Below, piece after piece: positions 41,435-58,802 of a stretch of 64,000 bases of DNA. The notes below the pieces were generated by a model. The model saw only the letters and a program-made list of their open reading frames with translations. It did no database searches and was not told where the DNA came from. The DNA is taken from assembly GCF_007671685.1 (NCBI RefSeq), contig NZ_VCNL01000002.1, forward strand, positions 248,001 through 312,000, in the 5' to 3' direction. Each line of letters begins with the position of its first letter. Position 1 is the first letter of the stretch. Both the position numbers and the translations under genes were made by a program. This DNA comes from Halorubrum salsamenti (lineage in GTDB: Archaea > Halobacteriota > Halobacteria > Halobacteriales > Haloferacaceae).

Positions 41435-41874
41435 GCGACGCGATTCACCGACGATAGTGGAGCAGTTAGGCACGGTAAACCGGGGCATGGAAGGGTCGAA
41501 ACGGAACTGTTTTACAATATCCTGCCATACCGGTAATTGCGTCGAACGGACGTGCGCTCTGGTGGTGTAGTCCGGCCAATCATATTGCCCTCTCACGGCA
41601 ATGACCTGGGTTCGAATCCCAGCCGGAGCATCCTTTCCTCCCGCCGTCTTGTGGTTTTAGCCTGCGCTGTCACGTATGTTCGACTCAACGCGCAGACCAC
41701 GTAAGTTCGAAGGATTCACACACAACCGTGCAGTCATGCGATTCCCCGGTTTGCGATACCTATCGGGTTCGCAGGACGCGGTCCTCTCCCCGTTGCTGTC
41801 GTGCGATTCGGGTATTTGGTTAGCGGGCGAAGTGCCATCCACTCACCGGGAGGCTCGGTCTCTGGAGGGGGCAG
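41435..41874. other. M42-to-integrase gap holding tRNA-Glu
   Basis: 440 bases. The tRNA-Glu gene (41556-41630) lies inside; the remaining flanks are gene-free. Before the tRNA a TTTTACAATAT element (41510-41520) may be its promoter. After the tRNA 3' end lies a run of about 240 bases with short frames but no gene I would support. The tRNA 3' end is the expected left attachment site. Confidence 0.65.
41556..41630 (+). tRNA. tRNA-Glu (CTC)
   Basis: 75 nt without an encoded CCA. The acceptor stem pairs GCTCTGG with CCGGAGC and A is the discriminator. The anticodon stem TTGCC/GGCAA encloses CTCTCAC, giving anticodon CTC. The T arm is CTGGG TTCGAAT CCCAG. An integrase gene lies about 245 bases downstream, so the 3' half is the likely integration site of the element that follows. 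Confidence 0.93.
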
Positions 41875-42975
41875 ATGGACCTTGACGATTACCCGGTCGT
41901 CACCGAGCCGTCCGAATCGTATCTGAACGAGCGGCAGTTGCTGGATTACCGCTCCGAACGCGAGGAGTGTCTCCGGTGGCTGCTCACCTACGGGAAGGAG
42001 CCGGAGAAAGCCGAGGGGTACGCGAAGGGAACAGTCAAACCGCGGTCGTATCGCATCGACCGGTTCTACCGATGGGTGTGGGAGCAAGAGGGCGGCTACA
42101 CGGTCAACCTCATGCACGACCACGCGGACGGGTGGATGGACCACCTCGCACATCGGGACGTGAGCGCCACGCACAAGGTGAACTGCCAGAAGTCGCTGAA
42201 GATGCTCTACAAGTGGCTTCACCACGAACGCGGCTCCGGACAGTGGGAGCCCGACATCACGTTCTCGGCGGACAACAGCTCGAACCCGCGGGACTTTCTG
42301 ACGAAAGACGAGCGGAAGGCCGTCCGCAACGCGGCGCTCGAATACGGATCGGTGCCCAGTTACAACAACTTGACTCCGACCGAGCGCGAGCGGTGGAAAC
42401 GCTACCTCTCTCAGCGGTTCGAAAAGCCGAAATCGGACGTGACCCCCGACGACTGGGACCGCGCTAACGGCTGGAAGATCCCGTCGCTGGTGTGGGTCAG
42501 TCTAGACGCCGGGCTCCGACCGACCGAGGTCAACCGGTCAACGATGGACTGGATCGACACCGACAACAGTCTCCTTCGCATTCCGAAGGAAGACAGCGCG
42601 AAAAACACCGATCACTGGCGAGTCGGCCTCAGCGATCGAACGGCGGAGATCCTCCAGAACTGGTGTGCGGAGCGACGCGCGTATCCAGCGTACGACGACA
42701 CCGACGCGATTTGGCTGACACGGAAAAAGAATTCGTGGGACGTCTCTTCGCTCCGCTACCTGCTGCATCGCCTGTGTGACATCGCCGGCATCGAGACCGC
42801 GAACCGACAGATGAGCTGGTACGCGATCAGACACTCCGTCGGGACCTACATGACGAGAGAAGAAGACCTCGCGGCGGCGCAGGCCCAGCTCCGTCACAAG
42901 TCACCGGAAACGACCATGAAGTACGATCAGACACCGGTCGAAGACCGGCGAGACGCGTTAGACAGAATGGGGTAG
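41875..42975 (+). CDS. Tyrosine recombinase (integrase), first copy
   Basis: 366 residues. The N-terminal SAM-like/core-binding half is charged, and the C-terminal catalytic half holds the tyrosine-recombinase residues: Arg in LDAGLRPTEV, Arg in YAIRHSVGTYM, His in AQLRHKSPETT and the nucleophile Tyr in TTMKYDQT. It likely integrates or excises the element at the adjacent tRNA-Glu. It ends 12 bases from its paralogue on the opposite strand. The proteins share long similar segments, for example LTPTERERWKRYLSQRF against LTPEDRDRWKTHIAQEL. Confidence 0.88.
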   Translation: MDLDDYPVVTEPSESYLNERQLLDYRSEREECLRWLLTYGKEPEKAEGYAKGTVKPRSYRIDRFYRWVWEQEGGYTVNLMHDHADGWMDHLAHRDVSATHKVNCQKSLKMLYKWLHHERGSGQWEPDITFSADNSSNPRDFLTKDERKAVRNAALEYGSVPSYNNLTPTERERWKRYLSQRFEKPKSDVTPDDWDRANGWKIPSLVWVSLDAGLRPTEVNRSTMDWIDTDNSLLRIPKEDSAKNTDHWRVGLSDRTAEILQNWCAERRAYPAYDDTDAIWLTRKKNSWDVSSLRYLLHRLCDIAGIETANRQMSWYAIRHSVGTYMTREEDLAAAQAQLRHKSPETTMKYDQTPVEDRRDALDRMG

Positions 42976-42987
42976 ACCGGTTCCCCG

Positions 42988-44100
42988 TCACATTAGTTCC
43001 GCCACTTCCTGTTTCCGCTCGGGAAGCGGGTGGATGTAACGATCCGCGGCGGCGAGACTGTTCTGCCGGAGCGCATCCGCCACGACCCGCAGATCCGTGT
43101 ACTCGTGATAGACGTACGTGCCGACGCTGTGCCGGAACGAGTACCACACCAACTTGCGGCCGCGCTGGTTGATCCCCGCGTCCTCCATGAGGTTATCGAG
43201 TAAATCGTTCAGCGTCCCTGACCCGTACGGGTTGCCTTTCCGGGTGAGCCACACCTCGTCACGCCCGTCGTACAGCTCCATGTTCGACCGCTGGTCGAGC
43301 CAGTTCTCGAAGGCGTTCGCCGCCTCGGCCGAGAGTTCCTGGGTCCACGACGAGTCGTTCTTCGGTGCCTCGCCGGCCGGAATGTGAATCGCTTGGTCCT
43401 CCGGGTCGTACCATCCGACTTTCAGCCGCTCGATGAGGGCCGGCCGCCACCCGGCTTCGCGCGTGGTTCGAACGAGTGACGGGATCTTCCAGTCGTGGTT
43501 GAGTTCGTCCCAGTCGCTGGGCCGGACCTCGTCTTTCGGTTTGCCGAGTTCTTGCGCGATGTGGGTCTTCCACCGGTCCCGGTCCTCCGGAGTGAGGTTG
43601 TTGTAGCTGGGAACGCTCTTGTATTCGAGCGCGGCTTGCCACAACTGCCGGAGTTCGTCCTTCTGAAACGGGTCGGCGTGGTTTTCGCTCCGTTCGTCGG
43701 TGAACGTGTGTTCGGGCTCCCACTCGGTATCGCAGAATGCGAACCAGTTCCGCAACACGTCGTTGATTTTCCGTTTGCTGCCTGGCGCGTACCGCTTGCC
43801 GTCGAGGCGGCGGAGCCGGTCTTCGACTAGGGCTTCGTTGACTGCGTCGGCGGCTCCCGTCGTGAGTTCCGTCGTCACCGTCTCGTTGTCCCAGACCCAC
43901 TTCACCGCTCGGTGGAGCCGTGAGATGCGTTGAGTGACGTTGCTGTAACCGAGTTCTCTCTTCGGGTCTTTCCCTTCGGTCTCCAGATACGTTGCAAAGC
44001 GGGTTAGCTTCGCGCGGTACATCTCCCGTTGGCGGGCGTTGAGCGGCTTGAACTGGTGATCCGATAGGATTCGGCTCTCACTGTCGTCCGAGCTACTCAT
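42988..44100 (-). CDS. Tyrosine recombinase (integrase), second copy
   Basis: 370 residues, convergent with the first integrase and homologous to it. The catalytic set is Arg in REAGWRPALIE, Arg in YSFRHSVGTYV, and the nucleophile Tyr in AADRYIHPL; the HxxR-like position before it reads ALRQN instead of LRHKS, so one usual His is missing. It may be a second integrase for the same att site, or a partly degenerate copy. Two-recombinase sets occur in some haloarchaeal elements. Confidence 0.86.
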   Translation of the reverse strand: MSSSDDSESRILSDHQFKPLNARQREMYRAKLTRFATYLETEGKDPKRELGYSNVTQRISRLHRAVKWVWDNETVTTELTTGAADAVNEALVEDRLRRLDGKRYAPGSKRKINDVLRNWFAFCDTEWEPEHTFTDERSENHADPFQKDELRQLWQAALEYKSVPSYNNLTPEDRDRWKTHIAQELGKPKDEVRPSDWDELNHDWKIPSLVRTTREAGWRPALIERLKVGWYDPEDQAIHIPAGEAPKNDSSWTQELSAEAANAFENWLDQRSNMELYDGRDEVWLTRKGNPYGSGTLNDLLDNLMEDAGINQRGRKLVWYSFRHSVGTYVYHEYTDLRVVADALRQNSLAAADRYIHPLPERKQEVAELM

Positions 44101-44778
44101 CGCTCACCTCCGTGGGCGCGACCACGACTCGGGTCGAATTGCGCTGGTCTTCCGACGGGGCACAGGATAGGGATAGATACGGCCCGCGTCTCCACGATTC
44201 TACGTCCCGGTGCGAAATCATCATTTAGCTCAACTGCACCGGCATAAGATCCTATTTAAAATAAATCTCTGCCTCAGCGGCGGTCAGAACTTTCCCCTAG
44301 AAAAGAAACATCCACACACAGCATACAGAGAAAAGACCGTTTTCCTCCTCCTTAGGGGTTCTATCAGAGGATGACGAGAACCCCGCTCCCGCAATCGGAA
44401 CCCATCCGCGTAACGACCGCGCATCGAAAACACGCCTCTCGGACCCGGTTCGCTTGCAACGAAATCTACGTAATCACGGGACGGAAGTTGGTTCTCGAAC
44501 CGCGATCGGCTCCGGTCAGCGACTAACTAAGATTCCGTTGTTCAGACCGTGCCGAATCACGATTCTCACTTGCTATCGATGGTGACACGTCCGCCGTCAG
44601 AGGATCGGGTGTTCTCATCGAAGGTGTCGAACACACACGATTCACTATCGAATCCACCACGCGGCATACTTCCACAGTGACACCGTTCTGGGCTCGCTCC
44701 GTCGCGGCGCGATCAGTCTGACCGCACTGCAATAAAGACGTGTCCGGCGTTCAAGTACGTAGAGCCCAACACGAAACC
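44101..44778. other. Gene-free interval after the integrases
   Basis: About 680 bases without a supported gene. The first part is AT-rich with CCTATTTAAAATAAAT near 44250, which may be a promoter for the second integrase. The rest has short frames only. No tRNA, repeat or insertion-sequence end was recognised. Confidence 0.55.
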
Positions 44779-45132
44779 GTGACTGACGACGCGTTCGCTC
44801 CCGACAATACCGGTGTCCCAACCGTCTCCTGTACCCGGTGTGGCCGCGAGTGGGAGCTTGACCACGAACTGGACGACCTCCACGCCGGGAACCGCGCGGT
44901 CGAACAGTTCGCGCTCGATCACGAACGGCACACCGGTCACTACCCGGACGACGTGACCCCGTGGACCGTTCGGTGCCAGCACTGTCCGGACGGCGAGCAG
45001 TTCCTTTCAGAACGCCCGGCCCGACGCTGGGCGACCACCCACGCACGCCACACGCGCCACACCGTCCAGCTCGAAGGTCCAGACGAAACGGCCGACAGCA
45101 TTTCGCCCGAGAGCAGCGAGTCGCAGCCGTAA
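44779..45132 (+). CDS. Double zinc-finger-like small protein
   Basis: About 117 residues from a GTG at 44779 (an in-frame GTG at 44740 is an alternative; GTTCAAG near 44750 fits a TATA box for 44779). It contains two copies of one unit: CTRCGREW followed by HERHTGH, then CQHCPDGEQ followed by HARHTRH. Each CxxC plus HxxHTxH can bind one zinc. Such units bind nucleic acid or act as adaptors in haloarchaeal elements. I know no function for this one. Confidence 0.65.
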   Translation: MTDDAFAPDNTGVPTVSCTRCGREWELDHELDDLHAGNRAVEQFALDHERHTGHYPDDVTPWTVRCQHCPDGEQFLSERPARRWATTHARHTRHTVQLEGPDETADSISPESSESQP

Positions 45133-45231
45133 ACACCGACAGCAGCATCGCAGGCGAGATAACCGCTTCTCTGCAGACTGCGCTTTCATCACGCGCGAGT
45201 GCCGAATGTGCGACGGGAGAGTGTCTCCCTG

Positions 45232-45879
45232 TCATCCCGGGCCGAGCGCGGCGATATCGGCTCCGACCGCGGCCCGCGCGTCGGCCGGATTCGGTTCGTG
45301 ATCGGCGAGATGCGTCCACTCACACGCTGGCAGCGCGGACAGGTGATCCAGGATCGCCGGGCGATACGGTGCCGCCGCAGCAACACCGTCACCGTCCCCC
45401 CAGATATCGTTAATCACCGTCATCGAATCGATACGGATCTCCACCGTGCCCGGATCACACCGCGAAGCGAGCGCCTCCAGCCCGAGGTGAAGCGCCGCGT
45501 ACTCCGCGGTGTTGTTCTCCGCTCTCGAGCCGACCGGCCGCCCCAACTCCGCAAACGGCTCACCGTCAGCTCGGAGAACAGCGCCCGCACCGGCCGGCCC
45601 GGGATTCCCACGCGAACCCCCATCAACGTACAGCACAACGTCACTCCCGTCAATCTCACGGCGTCGTTCTCCTGTGGACGGCGGATCCCTAGCGAGTATC
45701 TCATCGATCGCCGTTCGAATCTCACCGTCAGTCGTCTCCGGATCAAACAACCCACCGAATCCGGAGACGGCCGCATCGATCGCGTCGATCGCAGCCCGAA
45801 TCTCGTAGTCGTACACTGTGAGCACCTCATCGACCCGACTGGCAAGCGGCGACAGCGTCGCCGTCGGTAAGCGATCCAT
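45232..45879 (-). CDS. rnhA: Ribonuclease HI
   Basis: 215 residues. The N-terminal ~70 residues are an unknown helical extension. The catalytic domain has VLYVDGGSRGNPGPAG with the first Asp, ENNTAEYAALHLGLEAL with Glu, EIRIDSMTVI with the second Asp, and HEPNPADARA with the final acidic residue. It degrades the RNA strand of RNA-DNA hybrids. In an integrated element it may assist replication. Similar haloarchaeal RNase HI proteins are often chromosomal. Confidence 0.9.
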   Translation of the reverse strand: MDRLPTATLSPLASRVDEVLTVYDYEIRAAIDAIDAAVSGFGGLFDPETTDGEIRTAIDEILARDPPSTGERRREIDGSDVVLYVDGGSRGNPGPAGAGAVLRADGEPFAELGRPVGSRAENNTAEYAALHLGLEALASRCDPGTVEIRIDSMTVINDIWGDGDGVAAAAPYRPAILDHLSALPACEWTHLADHEPNPADARAAVGADIAALGPG

Positions 45880-46045
45880 CTTACCTGTCGATCCCCCTCC
45901 ACCGATCTTGCCAGTCCATCCTCACACTCACACTAGGTAGAACGGGGCAAAAACACGCGGGTCCCGACCGTCCAATGCTGAAGTCTGGAATACACACCAG
46001 ACGCGACGCAGAATAACGCGAATCGCCCAACACGAACCGTTACAC

Positions 46046-46594
46046 TCACTCTCTCCCGTATTTCTCGCCGAACGCCGCAAAGTGATCCACGAGGTCTGCC
46101 TGCGCCGCTTCCAGGTCATCGACTGACCCGATGTGTTTGTAGAACACCGTGTTCGAGTCGAACGGATTACTCGCGGTTGAAAGCGACCAGTCGCCCTCTT
46201 GGGTGCGATCAACAATCTCCTGGTCTACGTCTTCGGGAGCGCCTTTGACTTTGTACCCGAAGGCTCGAAGCGCGCCGTCAACGTCCGTGCGATCATACTC
46301 CGTCGGCGGCATCCAATACAGGTGCACATTCAGTCGCTGCGTCCGATCCACCGGGGCACTCGGACCCTCCATTTCGTGGTTGAGGCGGTGGATCGCAAGT
46401 GCCGATCCGGAGTTTTGATTTGTCTTTACGTTGATATTCGTCTCTGAATCGAACAGCTGAGGTTGTTCATCGACCAGTGCCTGATCGAACACGCGGAGCC
46501 GCGCCTCAATTTCGTCTTCGAACTGCGAGATCAACTGAATCGCTTTCAAGTACCGATCCGACTGCAGCCCCTCGGTCAGAAACTCATCGGTCAT
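46046..46594 (-). CDS. Partner protein of the PD-(D/E)XK nuclease, unknown
   Basis: 182 residues, start overlapping the nuclease gene stop by 4 nt (ATGA), so the two are coupled. It begins MTDEFLTEGLQSDRYLKAIQ, then a helical region and a beta-rich middle with RLNVHLYWMPPTEYDR, and VFYKHIGSVDDLEAAQADL near the end. No catalytic motif is recognisable. Operon coupling suggests a regulator, specificity or immunity subunit of the nuclease. Confidence 0.65.
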   Translation of the reverse strand: MTDEFLTEGLQSDRYLKAIQLISQFEDEIEARLRVFDQALVDEQPQLFDSETNINVKTNQNSGSALAIHRLNHEMEGPSAPVDRTQRLNVHLYWMPPTEYDRTDVDGALRAFGYKVKGAPEDVDQEIVDRTQEGDWSLSTASNPFDSNTVFYKHIGSVDDLEAAQADLVDHFAAFGEKYGRE

Positions 46595-47667
46595 ACGCTG
46601 ACTCTCGCCCGGAGATACGTTAACTGTTCGTCAAGTGTACCCGAGACGGCGATCGGCCGCACCGTCTCAACAACACCTGCGGGATCGACCATTCTCTCGA
46701 TCATCGGTTGCGGTTGGAAGCCTGCGACGTACTGTTCGATTGCCGCACAGAAGAGATACGCGTTGGCCGCCCAGTGGTCGTCAACGATATCCCCTCGCCG
46801 TAGTACCGACCGAACCGCTGCCGCGATATCCAGCCAGTACAGGACAGTAATCGGACCCGGGTCGTCCCACTTAACCTCCCGTCTCCCGTCCGCTGACGCC
46901 TCAATAGGCGGTGACACGATTGTCTCAAGACGCCCACGCTGCCGCTTCGGTAACAGCAGCACGTGGTCCCACTGCACATCGTCGAAATGTCGTTCGATGA
47001 GGGATGCCGTCTCCGGAGTTTTCCGATAGTTCTCGTCGCCGAGCTTCACCTCGATCGACACACCGTACTCGGGATGCCGGACCAAAATATCCGCTTGACG
47101 CCACCCGCCGTTCTGTTTCGGGAGCTGAACCTCACGGCGCACCTCGTCAGGCGGCGCTTCGATCGACTCATCAAATAACTCACTGACCAGCGCCGCAGAC
47201 GGTTGCAGTAGCTGCGCGAGCCACTGCGACCAGTCTAATTCACCGTTCGGTCGTAACGGCCCTCTGAACCCTTGTGAACCCGAGATATCCGCGGCAAGTG
47301 GATCCGTTTCGAACGGTGCGTCCGATGCCGCCCACAACTCGTTCGACCGGTCGAGTAACTCACCGACTTCAACTGCTGTCTGGTGACCCGTCGCAGTGAA
47401 TGTCTCCCACCACGGATCCAAGTCACCCCACCACTGAGTCACTCCACCTGGATTCGTCACCTGCAACGCGGCACTGCACACCACTGACGACGCCGGTTCC
47501 TCACCCGTCTGCGTCAGTGCGTCGATAGCCTCCCACTCTCGTTCCGTGTCACGCAGCACTCGCTGCCGATCGGAGCCGTACGCACTTACACCGCTCCCGG
47601 CGTCCAGATACGCGTCAACCCACGGATCGAGGCGCGCCCAGTCATCCGGTTCCACGTCAACAGTCAC
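46591..47667 (-). CDS. PD-(D/E)XK-type nuclease-like protein
   Basis: 358 residues from a GTG at 47667, with TTATATAA (47688-47697) about 25 bases upstream. Around residues 180-215 there is a typical PD-(D/E)XK core: REVQLPKQNGGWRQADILV followed by GVSIEVKLGD, where Asp, Glu and Lys form the D-x(n)-ExK pattern. Flanking parts are helical and unrecognised. It could be a restriction-like or other defence nuclease. It diverges from a methyltransferase remnant, which hints at a restriction-modification unit, but no specificity is provable. Confidence 0.6.
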   Translation of the reverse strand: MTVDVEPDDWARLDPWVDAYLDAGSGVSAYGSDRQRVLRDTEREWEAIDALTQTGEEPASSVVCSAALQVTNPGGVTQWWGDLDPWWETFTATGHQTAVEVGELLDRSNELWAASDAPFETDPLAADISGSQGFRGPLRPNGELDWSQWLAQLLQPSAALVSELFDESIEAPPDEVRREVQLPKQNGGWRQADILVRHPEYGVSIEVKLGDENYRKTPETASLIERHFDDVQWDHVLLLPKRQRGRLETIVSPPIEASADGRREVKWDDPGPITVLYWLDIAAAVRSVLRRGDIVDDHWAANAYLFCAAIEQYVAGFQPQPMIERMVDPAGVVETVRPIAVSGTLDEQLTYLRARVSV

Positions 47668-48105
47668 GCCCAGACCGACTCACCTAAATTATATAACTGC
47701 TTGGCAGGCGACCACGCCGATACACCGACGAACGCCACACTGTGCACACTTCTTATTCGAACCTTGCACATGCTCGGGCGGACAGATGCCACATGAGAGC
47801 GAGAGGATCCGGTGGCGAGTGTGTTCGTCGGGTCATGAGTGCTGGAACATGGAATGTACAGAACTCGGTACTGGGTCGCCGGCACACATTACGAGGTAAG
47901 CGGGTTACAGCGGAATTTGCTGGGACTGAAGCTGCGGAATTCAATTTTTTGCGGTGTACTTCGCTCGGACCGGGGTGGCCGGAAATCACTTCGTACACGC
48001 GTTTTCACGTCGATCCGCCACGGCACCGTGGGTTTCCCGGTATCCCGGTGAGAGTTCTAAGGCAAGTCTTCAAAAGTCGGTGGTTCAAGCTAAGTAGTTA
48101 GGGAA
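47668..48105. other. Divergent gap between nuclease and methyltransferase
   Basis: 438 bases. It holds the nuclease promoter (TTATATAA at 47688-47697) and, near its right end, a weak GGTTCAAGC element before the methyltransferase ATG. No gene or RNA was recognised in between. Confidence 0.5.
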
Positions 48106-50374
48106 ATGCCAGACCGCATTTCCACGACGGCGTTCACGAGAACCGATTCATCGACGCATTACGCGTCTCCAGCACCCGCTCAGTTCGATTCGACGGTCGG
48201 AGTTACAGGTCCGCGCGCGCCGATCAGCACGACTCCGCCGGAACTCGACGAGGGCAGTCCGGACGACCCGATACCGCCCCTGGAGGTTCATGCCGACATC
48301 GAGGCGCTCGAAGAGACGCTTACGGACGCGGCGGAGTCGTTCGCGGAGGCGTTCACCGCAGATGCGTCTGCGGAGCTCCGTTCACGAGCCGAGACGTGGG
48401 CTGTTGAGCGTGACTTCGACGACGACGTCATGAAGACGCCCGTTACGGAACAGGCTGCGCTCGCTGTCCTGTTGCGAGCGACGTTGTATGAGCCTAATCA
48501 CGACGAAGAGTTGCCGCTTGAGAACGCAGAGGAGGCGTTTCGCGCGGCTGCGTCGAACACGACGAACTCGGCACCGGGCTGGTGTGTCCTCGATGACGTC
48601 GCGTGGCTCGCCGCCGACGCGGCACTCGCCCCAGTGATTCGCGCACGACACACGCTCCAGGAGTCAACGTGCCCGTCCGAAGACCTCGGACGGCTGTACG
48701 CCGCTATCGTCACGAGTACCGATCGGCAAACGCTCAGCCAGTTCCGCGCCCCTCGATGGGCTGGCCGCGCCATGCGGGTCTGGGCTGGCGGCGACGGCGA
48801 TACCGTGCTTGACGCCGGCATCGGGCCGGTGCGTTGTCCACACCGTTACACCCCTCGTGGCAGGTCTGCGACGAACCCGCCGAAGTCATCGGGATCGACC
48901 GGAGCCCGCTGTCCGTGCTCCTCGGAACGACAGCGTTAGCGCTCACCAACCACACACCGTACTGCGAGGTGACTACCTTGACACCGAAGCTGACGACCTG
49001 CCGGTGAGCGTCGATGGAATGGTGTGTAACCCGCCGTACGCGCACATTCGCCTGTTGACGGAGCCGGAGAAAACGCAGTGGAACGATCAAGCGGAAGCGG
49101 AAGCCGGCGCTGACATCAGCAAGCAGTCGCCGCTGTACGTCTACTTCATGATTCACGCAGCGGAATTCCTCGATGACGGTGACAGAGCGGCGTTTCTGGT
49201 TCCGCAAGCGTTCCTCGGGACGCAGTACGGAATCGCACTCAAGCGGTTCCTGAAGCAGAACTTCGACATCAACGCGCTGATTCGAGTGGATCCTGACGGG
49301 GGCTCGCTGTTCGCCGACGCGGACACGGCAGCCGTGTTCGTGTTACTCGAAGCGGACGGTGATCCGGCCCCTGGAAGCAAAACTCGGTTCGTCACCGTCG
49401 ATGATCGAGACTTCACTTCGGTTCGAGCTGCGATGTGTAGCACGGCCACCGGGGTAACGGACTGGGGCGAAGTCACCACCGTCGCGCAGGCGGCGCTCAA
49501 TCCGGAACTCAACTGGCAGGCGCAGTTCGATCCGGTCGGCATTGACACGGGCCACCTCCCATCGCTATCGAAGCTCGGGGCGGTTCACGTGGCACCCCCA
49601 GCCGGGGAAGCCGGTGCGTTCTGCTTGACCGCAGGTACTGTCGAGCAGTACGGAATCAGCACGCAGCACCTGTCACGCGTAGCCCGTCACCCGGAAGACG
49701 TGCCAGGGTACGAGGTGCGGGAGGCCGACTGGGTAACGGCGCGCGAGGCCGGTACGGAAGTGTGGCTTCTTGACCCTGAGGACCTCCCCGTGCTCCCCGC
49801 CAGCAACGAGGCGTTCATCGAACAGTACGACGACGGAACCCTCACGGGAGACGCCGTCGATACTCCGCACGACAACCTCCTACGGTACCTGCGAGACAAC
49901 AGCCGAGAGTACGATCTATCCAATAGCTCATGCACGGAGCGACAGCACTGGTTCCGGCCGTCGAGACACGCTCCGGCGCCGATCCTGTTGACGAACGCCA
50001 GCCAGGACCAGTTGCGGTTCATCGTGAACGAAGCCGCGCTTCGAGTCGTGAATAACTTCTACGAGGTCGAACTCGGACTGACAGGCGCTGAGCGAAACGC
50101 CGTGCTCGCGTACTTGAACAGCGGTGTCATGGGAGACGTGCTTCGACGATACGGTCGCATCCGAAGCGGCGGGATGATGAAAATCAGCGTCAGGGCTGCC
50201 GAACAACTCCCGGTCATCGACCCGTCACGCCTGCCCGAAAACCTCGTCCAGAGCCTCGCCGACGCGTTCGACTCCCTACGTGGAACCGATCGAAGCAGCG
50301 ACTCACACGACCAGATCATCGACACCATCGACACGCTGGTTCACCGGGCCATCGAAGAAATGCGGCCGGCGTAA
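48106..50374 (+). pseudogene. N6-adenine DNA methyltransferase, broken by two frameshifts
   Basis: Read through, the product would be about 756 residues. The first frame runs from the ATG at 48106 to the AdoMet-binding region TVLDAGIG near 48830. The frame then shifts by one base: ALSTPLHPSWQV and EVIGIDRSPLSVLLG are read in the next frame (about 48838-48950). A second one-base shift near 48955 restores homology as HTVLRGDYLDTEAD and the catalytic NPPY in GMVCNPPYAHIRL (near 49027). The remainder to 50374 is intact and ends like a target-recognition region (NSGVMGDVLRRYG and IRSGGMMKISVRAAEQLPV). Both shifts equal one lost base. It is either a true pseudogene or two sequencing errors. Eco57I/type IIG-like or PglX-like relatives are possible. 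Confidence 0.8.
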
Positions 50375-50711
50375 CTAACTGTACGCGACAAATCCCACTC
50401 CCGGTGCTCAAATTAGTGACGAAGGCTTAGGTCCTGTCGGTATAGGAGGACTTTCAGGGCGGATCTTACTGCGTCTCTCGATGTGCGTTGCGAAGGGAAC
50501 GGACACCAATCGACACTTCCTGAGGAACGCACGCGGGACCGCCAGACCCTGAATCAGGAGCGGTGGCTGCCAGCATGACCATATTGCGTTTTATGATTGT
50601 AACAGTTGAGACTCATGACTCTATTCTGGGATGGGCTTTCCTTGGTGTGATATAAATGAGTGACCAGATTTTATATGAACTTTAAGTGAATAGAGTAACG
50701 AATTGTTCTTT
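50375..50711. other. Gap before the MNT gene
   Basis: About 335 bases, no gene. The right part is AT-rich and contains ACTTTAAG at 50681-50688, about 27 bases before the GTG at 50712, a good promoter candidate for the toxin-antitoxin pair. Confidence 0.55.
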
Positions 50712-51404
50712 GTGAAAACTGAACCGAACACTGATACTGGCGCTGGCGCGAGCATCTTGCTTGATATTCCCGCGCAAGAGACGGGTCTGTTTAAAAGCCA
50801 GGCCGTTCACGATGTGCTTTCTTTCTTATCTCGATATCACGAAGATGAGTTCTCTATCACGGAATTGGCTGACGCGGTGGACTACTCTCGCCCAACGATC
50901 ACAAAGGCGGTTGACACGCTCGTCGCTAACGACCTTGTCACCGATCGACGGGACGGGAACGCCCGATTAACCCAGATCAACCGGGGACGGTTGTCTCGCC
51001 CCGGCGACCCGTTACTCGAAATTCCTCAAGCCGAGTTTCACGCGCCAGTCCGCACTGCTCTCGAACAAGTACGTGACCAGTTAGACGGCGTCATCGGCGT
51101 CGTTCTGTACGGGAGTGTTGCGCGCGGGACCGCCGACCGGCGGAGTGACATTGACCTCTGGGTGCTCGTGACAGAAGACCGCATGGCGAATCAGCGAACC
51201 GCGAACACAATTCGGCAAGACCTCGAAGCACAAGAGTTCGACACGGGTCGCTACGCGTACGAGATCGACGTCGAAGCCCTGCCAGCCATTCCGAACTACA
51301 CTGAGAACCTCCAAGAGATACTCAGCGACGGCATTGTCCTCCACGACACGGATAAGTTCGAAACAGTTCGAGGGATGGTGTTCCATGGTGACCTCGATGA
51401 GTAG
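50712..51404 (+). CDS. MNT nucleotidyltransferase with winged helix (antitoxin-like)
   Basis: About 230 residues from a GTG at 50712 (a TTG at 50703 is less likely). The N-terminal winged helix (FSITELADAVDYSRPTITKAV) may bind DNA for autoregulation. The nucleotidyltransferase domain has GSVARGTADRRSDIDLWVLV, with the GSx(10)DxD pattern, and a third acidic site in YEIDVEAL. MNT proteins AMPylate and silence their HEPN partner. The next gene fits that partner, and the coding regions overlap. Confidence 0.85.
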   Translation: MKTEPNTDTGAGASILLDIPAQETGLFKSQAVHDVLSFLSRYHEDEFSITELADAVDYSRPTITKAVDTLVANDLVTDRRDGNARLTQINRGRLSRPGDPLLEIPQAEFHAPVRTALEQVRDQLDGVIGVVLYGSVARGTADRRSDIDLWVLVTEDRMANQRTANTIRQDLEAQEFDTGRYAYEIDVEALPAIPNYTENLQEILSDGIVLHDTDKFETVRGMVFHGDLDE

Positions 51405-51912
51405 AGACGCTGACCCACAGGCCATCACGGACGCGCTTGCAGCGGCGATCGATGCGTTCAACGAAGAAGGATACGGCATCCCCACGCGTGAGGACGAGAT
51501 CGATTCAGACGCCGAGTGGAAAACCCAATTGACGAAAGCGTGCCGGTTGTTGGCCGCTATCGAACACATTTCTAGGCAAGGGTTCTACACCGCTGCGATT
51601 GAGTTGTGCTTCGGTGCGACCGAACGGTCCGTCGAAGCCTACGCGCTCGCCGAAGGCGGGGACGAGCTCAATGACTTCCACGATCATACCACGTGCTACG
51701 ACCGAGCGACCGAACTCGGCTTGCTCTCTGACACGACCACGCGAGAGCTCCGGCGACTGTACGATACCAACCGCACCGATAGTTACTACGGCGGCCGCCG
51801 ACCCACAGAACAACAAGCAGAAACGATGCAACAACTCGCTGAGAGCGTCCACGAGTACGTTACAAACCAAATCAGAGAAGGCGGTGTTTGCGTCTGCAAC
51901 AATATCGACTAA
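51385..51912 (+). CDS. HEPN-like protein (toxin-like partner of MNT)
   Basis: About 175 residues from the ATG at 51385; an ATG at 51397 overlapping the MNT stop is an alternative. A four-helix all-alpha protein: AEWKTQLTKACRLLAAIEHI, AAIELCFGATERSVEAYA, TCYDRATELGLL and then LYDTNRTDSYYGG. The last matches the place of the HEPN RxxxxxH motif but has Tyr instead of His, so its RNase centre may be altered. The operon with an MNT gene supports a toxin-antitoxin pair. Confidence 0.7.
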   Translation: MVTSMSRDADPQAITDALAAAIDAFNEEGYGIPTREDEIDSDAEWKTQLTKACRLLAAIEHISRQGFYTAAIELCFGATERSVEAYALAEGGDELNDFHDHTTCYDRATELGLLSDTTTRELRRLYDTNRTDSYYGGRRPTEQQAETMQQLAESVHEYVTNQIREGGVCVCNNID

Positions 51913-51929
51913 CAATCTCGCACCAGAAT

Positions 51930-52838
51930 TCACTGTACTTTCACAAGCTGTGTCGCCAGTGATTCGAGTTCGTCCACTTCATCGATAGCAGCAAGCCACC
52001 GGTCCGGAAGGGTAGATGCTCCAAATCGCGCACCTGCGACTGCACCCGCAATCGCTCCGATCGTATCGGAATCTCCGCCACGACTCACCGCCGTCGCAAT
52101 CGCTTCTTCGGCGCTCTCCGCGAATAGTCCGTCATGGAGCGCCGTCTGTAGCGAATATACGACGTACCCTGACGTTTCCAACGCGGCAGGCGTGTCGCCA
52201 CGAGCGAGTGGTTCGAGCGCCGCTACGAGCTCGCCAGGCGCGTCTGCACTGATGTAGTCAAGCGCGTCCTGCAACGGCGTGTCTGCACCTTCAAGAAGGC
52301 CTGCCACCGTGAGATTCAGGACCGCACAGCCGTCCATACACCGCGGGTCGGCGTGCGTGATCTGCGATGACTGCCGACTGATTTCGGCGAGTCGGCCCCA
52401 GTCGGTGGCGTAGGGGACGGCGAGCGGCGCACACCGCATCACACTCCCATTCCCTGCGTTCTGCCCTTCTCGGCTCTGCTCCCACACGTGCTGTCCCGCC
52501 TCGTCCCACGCGTCGCCATGCTTGAGACGGTCGAGCGACCGCCTCGTCATCCCTCCAATGTCGAACGGACCGCTATCGAACCACGCGACGAACCGCTCAG
52601 CAACGTCCGCTGGATCGAACCCTTGCTGTTCGACGAGGCTTCGCGCGATGCACAGCGCCTGCTCGGTGTCGTCCGTGATCGTCCCGGCGGGCTGATTCCA
52701 CGTCCCGTGCCCGATCATCTCGTCAAGCCGCCCGTGTTCACGCTGGATCGCGGGCGCAGACTGGAATTCGACCGGTCGGCCAAGCGCATCCCCACACGCC
52801 AACCCGAGCATGACTCCACGGGCACGATCCGGATTCAT
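51930..52838 (-). CDS. ADP-ribosylglycohydrolase
   Basis: 302 residues from the ATG at 52838. It has the family opening RARGVMLGLACGDALGRPVE, the metal-binding GTITDDTEQAL and the C-terminal RGGDSDTIGAIAGAVAGA, which together bind two Mg ions. It removes ADP-ribose from proteins or nucleic acids. On a mobile island it could reverse a host or viral ADP-ribosylation, but no ADP-ribosyltransferase is visible nearby. It ends tail-to-tail with the HEPN-like gene. Confidence 0.93.
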   Translation of the reverse strand: MNPDRARGVMLGLACGDALGRPVEFQSAPAIQREHGRLDEMIGHGTWNQPAGTITDDTEQALCIARSLVEQQGFDPADVAERFVAWFDSGPFDIGGMTRRSLDRLKHGDAWDEAGQHVWEQSREGQNAGNGSVMRCAPLAVPYATDWGRLAEISRQSSQITHADPRCMDGCAVLNLTVAGLLEGADTPLQDALDYISADAPGELVAALEPLARGDTPAALETSGYVVYSLQTALHDGLFAESAEEAIATAVSRGGDSDTIGAIAGAVAGARFGASTLPDRWLAAIDEVDELESLATQLVKVQ

Positions 52839-52881
52839 ACACAACTCAACGATGACGTCCGAGAAAAGTGTAGGGTGGTCG

Positions 52882-53151
52882 TCACTCGTCGGGTTTCGAT
52901 CCGGTACGGAGATTCTCCCGGTACGCGGCCCACGCTTGATACATCTCCACTCGTTCCGCCTCCGTCATCGTCTCGTGTTCGTCCGCATCGTAGAACGGGA
53001 GCTCCTCTTTTTCCGGCATTGCCATCACCTGTCTGAGCGGATAGAGTTGCTCGTAGTAGTTCTCTAACACCCAGTCTTCGCCGTGCTCGTCGACGGCTTT
53101 CTGGATGTACGGGGCAGCTTCCGGATACTCGTCAGCGAGCGTCTCAGTCAT
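52882..53151 (-). CDS. Small acidic protein, unknown
   Basis: 89 residues, all helical and strongly acidic: YPEAAPYIQKAVDEHGEDWV and EMYQAWAAYRENLRTGSK. It lies 43 bases upstream of the ADP-ribosylglycohydrolase gene on the same strand and could be co-transcribed. No motif is recognised. It may be a genuine small orphan of the element. Confidence 0.55.
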   Translation of the reverse strand: MTETLADEYPEAAPYIQKAVDEHGEDWVLENYYEQLYPLRQVMAMPEKEELPFYDADEHETMTEAERVEMYQAWAAYRENLRTGSKPDE

Positions 53152-53207
53152 TAGGAGTCACGTTGTTGGTAGGGTATCTGGTTCGTGCGTCGCTTCCTCA
53201 ACTTCCG

Positions 53208-53738
53208 TTACCCGGACTCAGCCCCGTCGTCGCCGTCGGTGACTTGCTGTAGGGCGCGTTCACACTGCCCCCGTTGTTCACGCGCGGTCGCCCAGTCACC
53301 GAGATCGACGCGTACCTCGTCGATCGACCGCTCACTCGTCTCCGTAACGGCGACGGCATCGACTGCGGCAGGTGACCCAGCGTCGTATCGCTCCTCGTAC
53401 TCAACGATCCGCGCCGTTAGATCCTGTATACGGTCCCGTAGCTCCGCATCGGAGTTAGTCGCCGCCAGTTCATTGACGCGCCGCCAGTCGAAATACGCGT
53501 CATTCCGTGCGTACGTGACTTGCGGTCCGTCGTGACGGGTGACGATCCGTAACTCGGTGAACCAAGTCAGGAACTTCCGTGCGGTCTCCGGATCACAGTC
53601 GGCGGCATCAGCGATCGCTTCCACCGATGTCGGCTCACGAGCCTGTAGGATCGTACCGTAGACGCGTTGTTCAACGTCGTCACTGGCGACGGCATCCTCA
53701 AACGGTGGCGGCCCATCGGAACCGCTTGGATCGGGCAC
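53208..53738 (-). CDS. Winged-helix protein (haloarchaeal DUF7342-like)
   Basis: 176 residues from a GTG at 53738. Winged-helix part: EQRVYGTILQAREPTSVEAI and CDPETARKFLTWFTELRIV, followed by VTYARNDAYFDWRRVNEL and a coiled-coil, DAELRDRIQDLTARIVEYEE. This resembles the small haloarchaeal winged-helix DUF7342 family (recalled). It is a likely DNA-binding regulator of nearby genes. Confidence 0.7.
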   Translation of the reverse strand: MPDPSGSDGPPPFEDAVASDDVEQRVYGTILQAREPTSVEAIADAADCDPETARKFLTWFTELRIVTRHDGPQVTYARNDAYFDWRRVNELAATNSDAELRDRIQDLTARIVEYEERYDAGSPAAVDAVAVTETSERSIDEVRVDLGDWATAREQRGQCERALQQVTDGDDGAESG

Positions 53739-54025
53739 ACCCGTTATTACGGCTCAACAGGCATAATTCCCATTTCAAAAATTCGTTCCGACGGTACCGT
53801 CGCTAGCAATCAACGTCGAAGACGGAATACGGCGAGTGCGAGACAAACTCGATTCACTGAGTAATCCAGCACCACCACCGGTAGGCAGTTAGTGCTCGTC
53901 AGAGTTCCACCCATCGCAGTACACTGGGAGTGAGTGTCAGCAAACTCCACAACGCAAACAGCCGTCTCAAACGAACCTGGAATCGGAATACAAACAGCCG
54001 AGTGGTCGTAACGTGAGATATCTAG

Positions 54026-54241
54026 ATGGCAGAAAATAGTGGTTCCAACCAAGTGCCTAGCCAGCCAGTTGTTGTTCAAGAAGACACCCATCAGAACGAG
54101 ATTCCAGAGAATATCGACTCAGAGCTGTACAAGACAGACAGCCCGACCAACTCGTTCCACGAATTCAGAATCGAGCCCGATGACGAGCTCGTTGAAGCAC
54201 TTCGCAACAACGGTCACACGGTGAAATTCAGAGACCGGTAA
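54026..54241 (+). CDS. Small protein upstream of the PolB operon
   Basis: 71 residues. The N-terminal half is polar and the C-terminal half reads FRIEPDDELVEALRNNGHTV, possibly a helix that contacts a partner. It has no known domain and is separated from the RadA-like gene by 67 bases. It may be part of the same transcription unit. Confidence 0.5.
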   Translation: MAENSGSNQVPSQPVVVQEDTHQNEIPENIDSELYKTDSPTNSFHEFRIEPDDELVEALRNNGHTVKFRDR

Positions 54242-54308
54242 TTCCACTTCCAGTTTCACTCCGCGTGTATGGCTCACGCCTTTGACTATCACGTGGCAGG
54301 TAACGAGT

Positions 54309-54998
54309 ATGAACACGTCTCAACGACAGCCACGCGTTGAGTTACCGGAACTGGATGCCGGACTCACGCTCGTGGACGTGGGTTCGGATCTCGGCGTAAC
54401 GCCAGTCCAGTCCTTGCTGCTTGACTCCATCTTCGCCGGGGACGGCGACGCGTACTGGGTTGACGCGGCCGGCACGGCACAGACCACACGGCTTCGTGAA
54501 CTCGCTCCCGATCGGCGGTACCTTCACCGGGTGCACGTCGCTCGCGGGTTCACCGCGTATCAACAAACGTCGCTGCTTGACCGGCTCACCGGTGAGCACG
54601 TCACGGCCCCAAGCGTCGTGGTTGCGACCGGGATCGACCGGTTGTATCGAGACACCGACGTACCGGCAACCCACGCGCAGGACCTGTTGGTCCGGTCAAT
54701 CGCCGCACTCGCTCGCGTCGGGCGTGTCCACGACGTCCCCGTCATCGTGACGCGGTCGCGTGCCGACGAGTTCACGCAACCGCTCGTGAACGCGGCGCAG
54801 ACACACCTTCGGTGTGAGGACACGCAGTTCGGACCGCGATTCACCGACGCGACCGGAGACGTTGATACGCTCGTGTATCACCTCGGCGACGGGTGGGTGC
54901 AGACGACGCTCGCGTACTGGCAAGAGGTCCTCACTCACCGAGCACGGATGCATGACGCCCCGGTCGTGGGTGAAGAGGCGACGTCGGGAGTCGTCTGA
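54309..54998 (+). CDS. RadA/RecA-like protein with degenerate Walker A
   Basis: About 229 residues from the ATG at 54309. The layout resembles a RadA/Rad51 core, with a VHVARGFTAYQQTSLLD segment like the VNVARAFNTDHQ region, PVIVTRSRADEFTQPL like the Walker B strand and loop, and QFGPRFTD near the end. Where Walker A (GxxxxGKT) should be it reads GSDLGVTPVQS, so the phosphate-binding Lys-Thr is lost. ATP hydrolysis is unlikely. It may instead be a structural or loader subunit for the polymerase encoded two genes downstream; its stop overlaps the next ATG by 1 nt. Confidence 0.65.
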   Translation: MNTSQRQPRVELPELDAGLTLVDVGSDLGVTPVQSLLLDSIFAGDGDAYWVDAAGTAQTTRLRELAPDRRYLHRVHVARGFTAYQQTSLLDRLTGEHVTAPSVVVATGIDRLYRDTDVPATHAQDLLVRSIAALARVGRVHDVPVIVTRSRADEFTQPLVNAAQTHLRCEDTQFGPRFTDATGDVDTLVYHLGDGWVQTTLAYWQEVLTHRARMHDAPVVGEEATSGVV

Positions 54999-55279
54999 TG
55001 GGCCGGACCAACCCGACGTACCGTGACACGCTGCGCGCGATCGAGGACCGCTGGGGCCCGTACCGCCGGACGCTGCGCCGCCGCGATCAACCGCGATTTG
55101 ACCAGTTGTTCGTGTACGCCCGCAACCACGCTGATGCGGCCGGGATGTTGAATCACGAAGACCGGTTCGCACCTCTGCTGGTGAGCATCGCCATCGAACA
55201 GGAACGCCGGATCGACGAGCTCGAAGCTCGCATCACCGACCTCGAAGGCTCCACCAGTCCCGATGGTGCTGACCGTTGA
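54998..55279 (+). CDS. Small helical protein of the PolB operon
   Basis: 93 residues: TYRDTLRAIEDRWGPYRRTL at the start, then DQLFVYARNHADAAGML and a C-terminal coiled-coil, IAIEQERRIDELEARITDL. The start overlaps the RadA-like gene by 1 nt, and its 3' end overlaps the polymerase start by 17 nt. This tight packing suggests it works with the polymerase. It may match a haloarchaeal family near PolB (recalled), function unknown. Confidence 0.65.
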   Translation: MGRTNPTYRDTLRAIEDRWGPYRRTLRRRDQPRFDQLFVYARNHADAAGMLNHEDRFAPLLVSIAIEQERRIDELEARITDLEGSTSPDGADR

Positions 55280-57470
55280 TTTCCACTCTGCTGGTGACGT
55301 CGTTCGCTGGTCACTCACCGATGACGGCGTCACCCGCACAGTCCATGAAGGGTACACGCCGACGCTGTTCGTCGGCGACGCAGCTCGTGATCTGTACGGG
55401 CGGCGCGGCGGCCCGACCCCGACACCACCGGACCGTGATGGACTGTCCGACTCGCTCACTGAACTCCAAGCGTTCCTCACCGGGCAGGACGCTGTCGCCA
55501 ACACGGGATGTGAATCTTACCGGCAGACGTTTCGAACGGCACCGCGGCCGCTCCTCCGAATCGATGCGGCCAGCGTGGACGCGGTGCGGCAAATCGCACA
55601 ACGCGTCCAGCAGTTCAACAGACCGGCCGAGTACACGTGTTACAACGTCGATCTGACGCGGCAGTTCCGGTACTGCCTCGAAACCGGGACGCCGGCGAGC
55701 CCCGACCAGTCTGTCCGGCCACTCCGCACACTCTCCCTCTCGATCCCACCACACAAATCAGGGCCTGACGCCCTGACGCACCTCACGATCGACGGTGACG
55801 CTGCCGGGCAGACACCCGAAGCTGCAGTCACCGCCGTTGACCGTGCCGTCCGCGAACGAGATCCCGACGTCATCGTCGTGTCCACAGCGGACCTCATCCC
55901 GCTGCTGTTCGACGCCGCCGACACGCACGACGTATCTGGTTTCGAACTCGGCCGCGAGCCCGGGTACACGAAACTCGCCGGGGAATCCACGTACACGAGC
56001 TATGGGCAAGTCGGGCATTCCCCGGCCCGGTACACACTCCCCGGCCGCGTCGTGATCGACGAGTCGAACACGTTCTTCTACCACGAAGCTGGGCTACCCG
56101 GCTGCCTCGATCTCGTGAACCGCGCCGGACTCCCGCTCGAAGAACTCGGGTGGGCGTCGATCGGACGCGTCCTCACCGCCATGCAGATCCGCGCCGCCCG
56201 CGACCGTGACGTCCTCGTCCCGTGGCAAGCGTGGCGACCGGAACTCTTCAAACCCGCAGCCACGCTGGACGCCGCCGACCGCGGTGGCACCACGTTCGCC
56301 CCCGCAGTCGGCGTTCACGAGAACGTCCACGAACTGGACTTTGCGTCCCTGTACCCGAACATCATTCGCACACGCAACATCTCCCCGGAAACCGTTCGAT
56401 GCGGGTGCTGCGACACCGACGACGTTCCCGGCCTGGGGTACTCGATTTGCGACGCTGATGGGTACCTCCCGACGGTGCTCGGCCCGCTCATCGACGCGCG
56501 CAGCCGGATCAAAGACCAGATCGAGGAAACGACCGACGACGCCGAACGCGACCGGCTCGAATCAGCGTCGGCAGCGATCAAATGGATTCTCGTCTCGTGT
56601 TTCGGGTACCAAGGCTTCTCGAACGCGAAGTTCGGCCGCATCGAATGTCACGAAGCGATCAACGCGTTCGCCCGCGACATCCTCCTCGATGCGAAAACCG
56701 CGCTCGAAGCCGTCGGGTGGCAAGTGCTCCACGGCATCGTCGATTCCATCTGGGTCACCCCGGCCCCGGACCGTGACCAACGCCCGCTCGAAACCGTCGC
56801 CGCAGAGATCTCCGCAGACACCGGGATCGCGTTAGAATATGAGTCCGCGTTCGACTGGGTCGCGTTCTGCCCGATGCGGAACGGCGACAGCGGCGCACTC
56901 ACCCGATACTTCGGAAAACGACGCGTCGAAACCACACCGTCCACTGGCGAGCTCGGTGACGCGATCAAAACGCGTGGCATCGAAACCCGGCAGCGAAACA
57001 CCCCGCCGTGGGTGAGTACCGTCCAGGAAGACGCGCTCCGCGTGTTCGACGCCACGCGGTCACCTGACGCCGTGTGCGACGTGCTCCACCGGCACCTCAC
57101 CGCACTACGCCGCGGCGACGTCGCAACGGACGACCTCATCGTCGCCAACCGCGTCTCCAAACGGGCGGACGCGTACACGCAGGAAACACTCACCGTCGCC
57201 GCACTCCGCCGCACCCAACACCACGGGTCAAGCCTCGCCCCAGGGCAAACCGTCCGCTACATCGTCGTCAACGCCGACGGACGCGGCATCGACCGCGTCC
57301 GCCTCCCGTTCGAAGACAGCGAGTCGTACGATGCTGACTGGTACGAAGACGCCGCGATCCGCGCCGTCGAAAGCATCGTCTCGTGTGTCGGCTGGGACCG
57401 CACAGACATCGACCAGTACCTCGCAGACACTACCGAAACCACTCTCGGGAGTTACAATACACAACCTTGA
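55263..57470 (+). CDS. Family-B DNA polymerase with altered motifs
   Basis: 735 residues. Motif A is intact (HELDFASLYPNII, about 357-368). Motif B is K440WILVSCFG: the usual Asn is Val and Tyr is Phe. Motif C is GIVDS (491-495), keeping the second Asp of DTD but replacing the first by Ile. In place of the exonuclease Exo I DIE there is TLSLSI (157-161), and the Exo II Asn/Asp region reads VIVVSTADLIPLL. A CGCC run near 380 may bind zinc. Proofreading is probably absent; polymerase activity is uncertain. This is much like the inactivated archaeal PolB2 group (recalled). A short replicative or repair polymerase of the element is the alternative. Confidence 0.85.
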   Translation: MVLTVDFHSAGDVVRWSLTDDGVTRTVHEGYTPTLFVGDAARDLYGRRGGPTPTPPDRDGLSDSLTELQAFLTGQDAVANTGCESYRQTFRTAPRPLLRIDAASVDAVRQIAQRVQQFNRPAEYTCYNVDLTRQFRYCLETGTPASPDQSVRPLRTLSLSIPPHKSGPDALTHLTIDGDAAGQTPEAAVTAVDRAVRERDPDVIVVSTADLIPLLFDAADTHDVSGFELGREPGYTKLAGESTYTSYGQVGHSPARYTLPGRVVIDESNTFFYHEAGLPGCLDLVNRAGLPLEELGWASIGRVLTAMQIRAARDRDVLVPWQAWRPELFKPAATLDAADRGGTTFAPAVGVHENVHELDFASLYPNIIRTRNISPETVRCGCCDTDDVPGLGYSICDADGYLPTVLGPLIDARSRIKDQIEETTDDAERDRLESASAAIKWILVSCFGYQGFSNAKFGRIECHEAINAFARDILLDAKTALEAVGWQVLHGIVDSIWVTPAPDRDQRPLETVAAEISADTGIALEYESAFDWVAFCPMRNGDSGALTRYFGKRRVETTPSTGELGDAIKTRGIETRQRNTPPWVSTVQEDALRVFDATRSPDAVCDVLHRHLTALRRGDVATDDLIVANRVSKRADAYTQETLTVAALRRTQHHGSSLAPGQTVRYIVVNADGRGIDRVRLPFEDSESYDADWYEDAAIRAVESIVSCVGWDRTDIDQYLADTTETTLGSYNTQP

Positions 57471-57566
57471 ATTCAACCAGAGGCAGCAGCTCCGCCACCT
57501 CTCCGCTCCTAACCGAATCGTCGTCCGACCAAACTGCTTAGTTCGTAGTCCGCGTACCTCTGAGCC

Positions 57567-58196: not shown

Positions 58197-58389
58197 GAAC
58201 CTGAATGCCGGGAACCAACCGTCCCCGCCCAGTATCGAAGAAACGACGCAAGGACACCTCAAATGAGGTCGCGCGTGATCTCCACAGCCATGAGAGATTA
58301 AGACCGTCGCCAATGTTCACAAGCCGATGTTTTTGAGAAATTTCGGCTTGAGAACGCCTAAGCGTCTCTTCCCCGCACGGAACACTACG

Positions 58390-58802
58390 ATGGCGACGAA
58401 TCACTCGCAGACCGCCGGCGCAGCGTTCTCGGAGGACCCCGAAGACCTGCTGCCCGAGGACAGCGCCCTCAGCCTTAACGAGTACCTGGCGATGCACGCA
58501 GCGGTCGGGCACCGCATCAGATACGAAATCCTCTACCGACTCGTCCACAGCGGCGACATGAGCCCCACAGAACTGGCGGACGCGATCGACATCGACGACA
58601 GTACCCTCCACTATCACCTCAACAAACCCGCGACGTGGAACTCGTCGAAAAACGCCAACACACCGAGCGAGAAGCAGACGGCCTCTAGACGTACTACCGA
58701 GCGACAGTGCTCGGCGAGGTAACGCTCACGAGCGGCGTTGACGAACTGATCCGCGGCGAGAAAGACTTCGAAGCGATGTACGACAGTTCGACCGAGAACT
58801 GA
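58390..58802 (+). pseudogene. ArsR/MarR-type winged-helix regulator, decayed
   Basis: The frame from the ATG at 58390 reads well through the winged-helix core (AVGHRIRYEILYRLVHSGD, MSPTELADAIDIDDSTLHYH) up to about 58626. Homology then continues one base earlier as RDVELVEKRQHTEREADGL, ends at TAG (58686-58688), and goes on as TYYRATVLGEVTL to a TGA at 58800-58802. A one-base deletion and a premature stop (probably TAC to TAG) therefore inactivated it. Confidence 0.75.

Follow-up and report, generated by a model that had tools for sequence, protein, structure and literature searches.

At positions 41556 to 44100 of a 64,000-nucleotide stretch of the Halorubrum salsamenti genome (contig NZ_VCNL01000002.1; the whole stretch, here called the window, is G000:C12:248001-312000 in our numbering of this 21-contig genome), two convergent tyrosine recombinase genes, Int1 and Int2, stand beside an intact tRNA-Glu(CTC) gene (Table 1). 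An earlier note on this DNA had described two such recombinases ending 12 bases apart on opposite strands, adjoining a tRNA-Glu and sharing long similar segments. Each of these points was confirmed, by open reading frame coordinates, by matches to PF00589 (Phage_integrase) above the Pfam cutoff of 27.1 (Int1: 54.7 bits, E = 1.4e-14; Int2: 44.6 bits, E = 1.8e-11), by ARAGORN, and by an identity of 37% between the two proteins over 356 columns (E = 2e-65), a likeness therefore beyond chance. Int1 belongs to the HSTV2 integrase family (SiLiX clustering, which asks for ≥30% identity to a member across 60% of the protein; Badel 2021), being 50% identical to the HSTV-2 integrase over 98% of its length and 36% identical to the HF1/HF2 integrases; Int2 enters the family through Int1. 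The spacer between the stop codons measured 3 to 14 bp in six of 12 convergent Int1/Int2 pairs. No third recombinase lies next to the pair. Elsewhere in the genome, a third paralogue lies alone beside a tRNA-Gly(TCC) (G000:C1, L013:14021-15160, minus strand; tRNA at 15349-15420); it has the full catalytic set, and its island measures 12.0 kb with a tRNA repeat of 43 bp.

The pair forms the left end of an 88.2-kb island. A 44-bp stretch of the 3′ part of tRNA-Glu recurs as a perfect direct repeat 88.2 kb away, beyond the window, which therefore holds only the first 22 kb of the element; the positions given in the earlier note were right for the pair, but the element reaches far past them, to C12:377837. 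GC content drops from ∼0.70 to ∼0.60 at the element. The search for the element and its attachment (att) sites in relatives that the earlier note had advised recovered islands and att pairs, and in three of 19 loci examined (G121, G125 and G118) DNA matching the right flank follows this tRNA-Glu at a distance of 0.5 to 1.2 kb, which marks an unoccupied site; in the remaining loci no right-flank match was seen within the 1.5 kb available per locus. With terminal tRNA direct repeats and an empty site in relatives, the element is a tRNA-integrated genomic island. Its left arm is conserved across 16 aligned loci and contains direct repeats resembling GTCTTGCGATT, possible arm-type binding sites. 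Allowing one mismatch, the motif recurs at the left end and was absent near Int2 and from the last 500 bases before attR; the arm-motif scan therefore gave no binding site for Int2.

To establish how widely the pair occurs, 391 Halobacteria genomes were searched with Int1 (227 matched) and Int2 (139 matched at E ≤ 1e-50, cross-matches to Int1-like genes included), and 20 loci of up to 20 kb, followed by the 40 next-ranked Int1 loci, were compared. Among these 40, a second recombinase was convergent with Int1 in 21, in the same direction in three, and absent from the stretch examined in 16; by target, it accompanied 20 of 27 integrases at tRNA-Glu(CTC) and none of nine at other tRNAs, with no tRNA found at four loci. 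Islands from several haloarchaeal families carry this convergent pair, and named hosts of the Int2-type pair include Halopenitus, Haloferax massiliensis, Halohasta litorea and Halorientalis marina. In an Int1 tree of 55 rows, the partner was present in 42 of the 46 rows of one clade (among these 42, two have remnants only and two a partner at a distance) and in none of the nine rows of a second clade. Excluded from this table were G318, G364, G304 and G158, which lie at contig ends; G315, whose Int1 is truncated where the contig begins; G320, with a frameshift in Int1; G066, which has the same Int1 as G065; and G156, with an N inside Int2. Of these, G320, G066 and G315 nonetheless carry the convergent pair. 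When loci classed as single were searched for remnants, C-terminal pieces of a partner were found beside Int1 only in G090 and G162. Two genomes showed more complex arrangements. The G189 island seems rearranged, with extra tRNA-Glu copies bearing one mismatch (G189:C1:1549298, minus strand, and 1670438, plus strand), one of them inverted beside a truncated Int1-like gene. In G204, tandem islands occupy one tRNA-Glu (G204:C1, L092, 1889-3034 and 3483), and the integrase of the first has Ile at the last catalytic His.

The phylogeny of both recombinases, also called for in the earlier note, yielded congruent trees. Distances among Int1s and among Int2s were correlated (r = 0.918, 14 pairs, 0 of 20,000 permutations; r = 0.872 for 12 pairs without near-duplicates), as were patristic distances in a Mantel test covering every partner type (37 pairs, r = 0.816, 0 of 10,000 permutations; G239 and G285, with the partner in two pieces, and G259, with a partial partner, were excluded). 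In a joint tree, a single branch split all Int1s from all partners (SH-aLRT 100). Together, the congruence and the single-branch split indicate one old pairing rather than repeated chance neighbors. Int1 and Int2 are also the only gene content common to all six islands that could be followed from att to att (G000, G065, G032, G204, G214 and G320; 19 to 81 genes each, called with a home-made codon-usage caller), a set in which the Int1 of G320 is frameshifted and the Int2 of G214 lies in the same direction as Int1.

Int2 differs from Int1 in its active site. The loss of one expected His reported in the earlier note was borne out (QLRHKS in Int1, ALRQNS in Int2): a profile search of the Protein Data Bank aligned Gln346 of Int2 with the catalytic His of XerA (5hxy) and XerH. 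Gln occupies this position in 12 of 12 close Int2s, which retain the first Arg, Lys, second Arg and Tyr. The first His of the HxxR box is Tyr in both proteins (YAIR in Int1, YSFR in Int2), which is normal for the family (40 of 40 Int1-like rows, all otherwise complete for the family's catalytic set). The full R-K-H-R-(H/W)-Y set is thus absent from both, with two changes in Int2 and only the Tyr in Int1. Across 73 sequences, K247, R323, R345 and Y355 were invariant. A different change marks the type-B partners, a sister type: in the second set, Arg-I is replaced in 18 of the 24 partners (by Ile, Ala, Thr, Leu or Pro), and all 18 retain Lys, the second Arg, His and Tyr; the other six (L172, L173, L174, L177, L196 and L201) keep both Arg-I and His (L184 and L173 were read as two pieces). 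Int1 and Int2 are both under purifying selection. The ratio of nonsynonymous to synonymous substitution rates (dN/dS) of Int2 was 0.12 between G046 and G047 and 0.065 between G204 and G244, the latter with dS near saturation; dN between G046 and G047 was 0.055 for Int2 versus 0.022 for Int1, and the reading frame was intact in all 14 Int2 sequences compared. An AlphaFold2 model of Int2 from 73 sequences (predicted local distance difference test score [pLDDT] 92.3; an earlier model from 11 sequences, pLDDT 58.9, was poor and not used) has a tyrosine-recombinase fold. The nearest solved folds were XerA (Z = 21.2, root mean square deviation [rmsd] 15.2), XerH (Z = 18.6, rmsd 4.4), Cre and lambda Int, with MrpR/YopR and phi3T SroF further down.

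The integration sites of paired islands are asymmetric. Their repeat begins with the anticodon loop, and the left half-site, which comes from the element, consequently does not resemble the tRNA. In four single-integrase islands at tRNA-Glu(TTC), by contrast, the repeat also takes in the 5′ strand of the stem: the attP left half-site agreed with the tRNA at 40 of 40 positions there, as opposed to 56 of 140 in the paired islands (n = 14). Among islands targeting Glu(TTC), asymmetry is seen in the paired G032, G046 and G047 and symmetry in the single G312, G063, G084 and G256; the single islands G243, G183 and G396 at tRNA-Gly or tRNA-Arg are likewise symmetric. In the paired clade all 19 rows with a known core are asymmetric, the left half of attP differing from the tRNA half; in the partner-less clade seven of eight known cores are symmetric. 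Compared between paired and single islands, core symmetry gave Fisher P = 2.5e-4 with G090, G416 and the G000 tRNA-Gly paralogue left out, and P = 0.0014 once three more asymmetric singles were added; both values ignore relatedness and are descriptive. Partner presence and att asymmetry represent one evolutionary transition, a correlation only. Paired islands were also larger, at 24.8 to 288 kb (12 islands, median 65 kb) versus 3.1 to 39.3 kb for single ones (13 islands, median 10 kb; Mann-Whitney P = 1.6e-5, relatedness again ignored and the value descriptive); att copies were taken as the nearest match on the same strand, so tandem arrays could distort single size values. The smallest, a 3.1-kb mini-island with Int1 only (G416:C5, L108, 3615-6780), has a right end almost identical to the right end of the paired G320 island and looks like a deletion derivative. 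In two single-integrase Glu(TTC) islands, a small protein is encoded right after the integrase (L208:5315-5848 and L204:5655-6152, both on the minus strand); the two are 50% identical, have no Pfam match, and are candidate helpers replacing the second recombinase.

Our favored reading, to which we give a probability of about one-half, is that Int1 and Int2 are one ancient recombination module of large tRNA-Glu cargo islands, with Int1 the main catalyst and Int2 a specialized partner. Int1 would recognize and cut at the tRNA-derived half-sites, while Int2 would join it as a second subunit at the asymmetric core, occupying the diverged left half-site of attP and attR, and recombination would then depend on a synapse built from both proteins, much as with XerC/XerD. 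The replacement of His by Gln in Int2 and the loss of Arg-I in type-B partners may have produced a weak or noncutting partner subunit, whose main job would be half-site recognition, synapsis, and control of the direction or timing of island movement. The earlier note had suggested two-enzyme integration; congruent trees, cargo turnover and purifying selection support its conserved, co-inherited pair, and the joint reaction, a heteromeric mechanism with a mixed tetramer and reduced cutting by Int2, is what we infer beyond the observed pairing, its conservation and the asymmetry of the site. A wider proposal is doubtful at present: that these islands are a haloarchaeal class of their own, built on a full integrase and a conserved pseudo-recombinase that reads the element half-site, in which the recombinase would exchange one pair of strands and host enzymes finish the Holliday junction, and in which gain of the partner might have freed the core from symmetry and gone with larger size.

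Several observations weigh against the module. Congruence of the trees can result from linkage alone, so the stronger argument is that the pair was kept despite cargo turnover. In some islands Int1 and Int2 are separated by 0.6 to 5.9 kb or share one orientation, and tight convergence is therefore not essential. Four loci within the paired clade (G188, G199, G351 and G416) have no partner, so the element can at least persist without one, and the three with a known att (G188, G351 and G416) are still asymmetric, which means that the partner is not needed to preserve asymmetry. These four loci lost the partner secondarily, and they are joined by G090 and G162, where remnants of it persist and where asymmetry likewise holds as far as the core is known. 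Asymmetric sites also occur with single integrases, in G273-C41 (tRNA-Gly), a member of the partner-less clade, and in the distant tRNA-Gly paralogue of G000. Finally, asymmetry and partner presence change together at one split in the Int1 tree and are therefore not independent tests; an independent-pairs test had no power (four pairs, asymmetry differing in at most one).

The main rival, a serious possibility although not one we consider probable, is that Int2 and the type-B partners are former recombinases that now serve as DNA-binding regulators or as directionality factors: bound to element DNA, they would control Int1 expression or decide between excision and integration from outside the synaptic tetramer, like the SPbeta repressor MrpR. 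Active-site changes are conserved in both partner types, MrpR/YopR and phi3T SroF appeared among the fold-search matches of Int2, and MrpR itself is described as having a tyrosine-recombinase fold without recombinase function (PMC10516654, in the part available); convergent genes with 3 to 14 bp between their stops could, moreover, interfere through antisense transcription. However, Int2 retains both Arg, Lys and the Tyr nucleophile, whereas the same part of that source has MrpR without most catalytic residues, Lys and Tyr being kept; six partners retain Arg-I and His, and a regulator alone leaves the att asymmetry unexplained. It is unlikely that Int2 is a separate working recombinase with a site of its own, used for instance to capture cargo, resolve dimers or invert DNA within the island. 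Its nucleophile is kept and cargo lies between Int1 and Int2 at four loci (L095, L099, L103 and L104), but a search that covered the tRNA repeat and a single arm motif gave no conserved second repeat or inversion site, and partners without Arg-I are not expected to cut DNA alone. Int2 is very unlikely to be a decaying, functionless duplicate of Int1 carried along by linkage. One catalytic residue is missing and Int2 evolves faster than Int1, but its frame stayed open, dN/dS was low in the two informative comparisons (0.065 to 0.12), the same Gln is fixed across the clade, and the gene was kept while the remaining island content turned over. The other option of the earlier note, two elements with Int2 belonging to one nested in or adjoining the Int1 element, can hardly be right, for although tandem elements exist at this tRNA (G204, att at 2512697, 2537482 and 2598537) and a further recombinase lies nearby at several loci, the window holds a single att copy with no second one between or beside Int1 and Int2, the same convergent partner recurs across families with a congruent phylogeny in 37 pairs, the pair alone is common to the six complete islands, and the G204 tandem elements carry different integrases.

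The cargo of the island is variable (Table 1). Besides the listed genes it holds an Mrr nuclease, and the overlapping nucleotidyltransferase and HEPN genes presumably form a toxin-antitoxin pair of the MNT-HEPN kind. The NurA/HerA cluster matches the G204 island (L092:15165-19998) at 76 to 86% identity, while most other cargo differs. The lowest GC within the island part of the window (0.46 to 0.60, at 59001-64000) points to more recently acquired cargo. No capsid gene was seen among the cargo genes searched, a part of the cargo in which defense and metabolism genes were found. Of genes bearing on conjugation, only HerA/NurA-type ones were seen, no search aimed at conjugation genes having been made. 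Against IMG/VR, the Int2 profile gave one distant match (35%), and a plasmid collection gave five distant matches, the recombinase pair not being sought there. If the two-subunit module is real, a major haloarchaeal exchange route for defense systems (Dnd-Pbe, NurA/HerA-type, restriction) uses a two-subunit recombinase, and relatives that use one and the same tRNA with or without a second recombinase offer a testable system for the effect of an altered second subunit on site choice, direction and size.

Table 1. Features of the tRNA-Glu island; coordinates are those of the window unless prefixed with genome and contig
Feature	Coordinates	Strand	Basis or remark
tRNA-Glu(CTC), integration target, intact, left end	41556..41630	+	ARAGORN
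attL core repeat, 44 bp	41589..41632	+	Anticodon loop to just beyond tRNA 3′ end
Left arm, tRNA to Int1	41633..41874	+	Conserved across aligned loci
GTCTTGCGATT-like direct repeats, possible arm-type binding sites	~41646, 41733, 41798		Alignment and motif scan
Int1, tyrosine recombinase, HSTV2-type haloarchaeal family, 366 aa	41875..42975	+	R215, K243, YxxR319, H341, Y350
Spacer separating Int1 and Int2 stop codons, 12 bp	42976..42987	.	
Int2, diverged recombinase paralogue, 370 aa	42988..44100	-	Keeps R219, K247, R323, Y355; Gln346 replaces catalytic His
Variable cargo, left part	44101..64000	.	Continues beyond window to C12:377793
Eco57I-type restriction-modification methylase	49019..50374	+	Pfam
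Nucleotidyltransferase gene, then HEPN gene	50712..51912	+	Pfam; 20-base overlap
Family B DNA polymerase (PolB)	55263..57470	+	Pfam
Dnd-Pbe phosphorothioation genes	G000:C12:321805-337778		PADLOC; two sets of PbeA/PbeC-like proteins
NurA and HerA domain cluster	G000:C12:363275-371147		Two Mre11/Rad50-looking genes
attR core repeat, second 44-bp copy	G000:C12:377794-377837		Outside window

Parts of this arrangement have precedents, compared here with the portions available of the papers cited. HSTV2-family integrases, to which Int1 is related, are treated as single integrases in Badel et al. 2021 (PMC8371274), the portion available mentioning no conserved second recombinase. Dyall-Smith et al. 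2011 (PMC3119063) reported integrases of the HF2 type next to tRNA-Glu, accompanied by a truncated copy of the tRNA 5 to 48 kb downstream, and mentioned "an additional integrase" in Haloquadratum walsbyi GI3; pairing, conservation, altered active sites and att asymmetry are not described in the part available. MrpR likewise reuses the recombinase fold without recombination (PMC10516654, in part), but it has lost most catalytic residues, whereas Int2 has R219, K247, R323 and Y355 and adjoins a complete paralogue. The asymmetric core with two different half-sites, seen in all 19 paired-clade rows with a known att, is XerCD-like. XerC and XerD have a full catalytic set in both subunits and are chromosomal, unlinked and controlled by FtsK, unlike Int1 and Int2. 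They are also two paralogous recombinases, one per arm of an asymmetric core, as summarized in the available part of a paper on XerH (PMC5241119). Literature titles and the beginnings of abstracts contained no conserved recombinase pair in haloarchaeal islands; relative to this literature, which did not cover subscription papers, a two-subunit haloarchaeal recombinase is not described. The nearest analogues are bacterial, namely GInt islands and strand-biased circularizing integrative elements (SEs). GInts (PMC5385486, in part) are site-specific islands of 2.5 to 70+ kb with variable cargo, a conserved recombination module and several tyrosine recombinases, of which GinC lacks part of the active site; they encode three recombinases and GinD in one operon (ginABCD), which the Int1/Int2 locus does not have, were reported not found in archaea, and are described without mention of tRNA in the portion available, whereas the present pair is convergent, archaeal and at tRNA-Glu. 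SEs, RIT elements and Tn554 (PMC10214605, in part) encode two or three tyrosine recombinases together, and SEs also a recombinase-fold protein without the catalytic motif; their recombinases lie in operons in bacterial hosts, and SEs carry intA-tfp-intB-srap between inverted repeats at their ends, without leaving an empty site, in contrast to the convergent pair described here, whose islands are bounded by tRNA direct repeats and whose site is unoccupied in three relatives.

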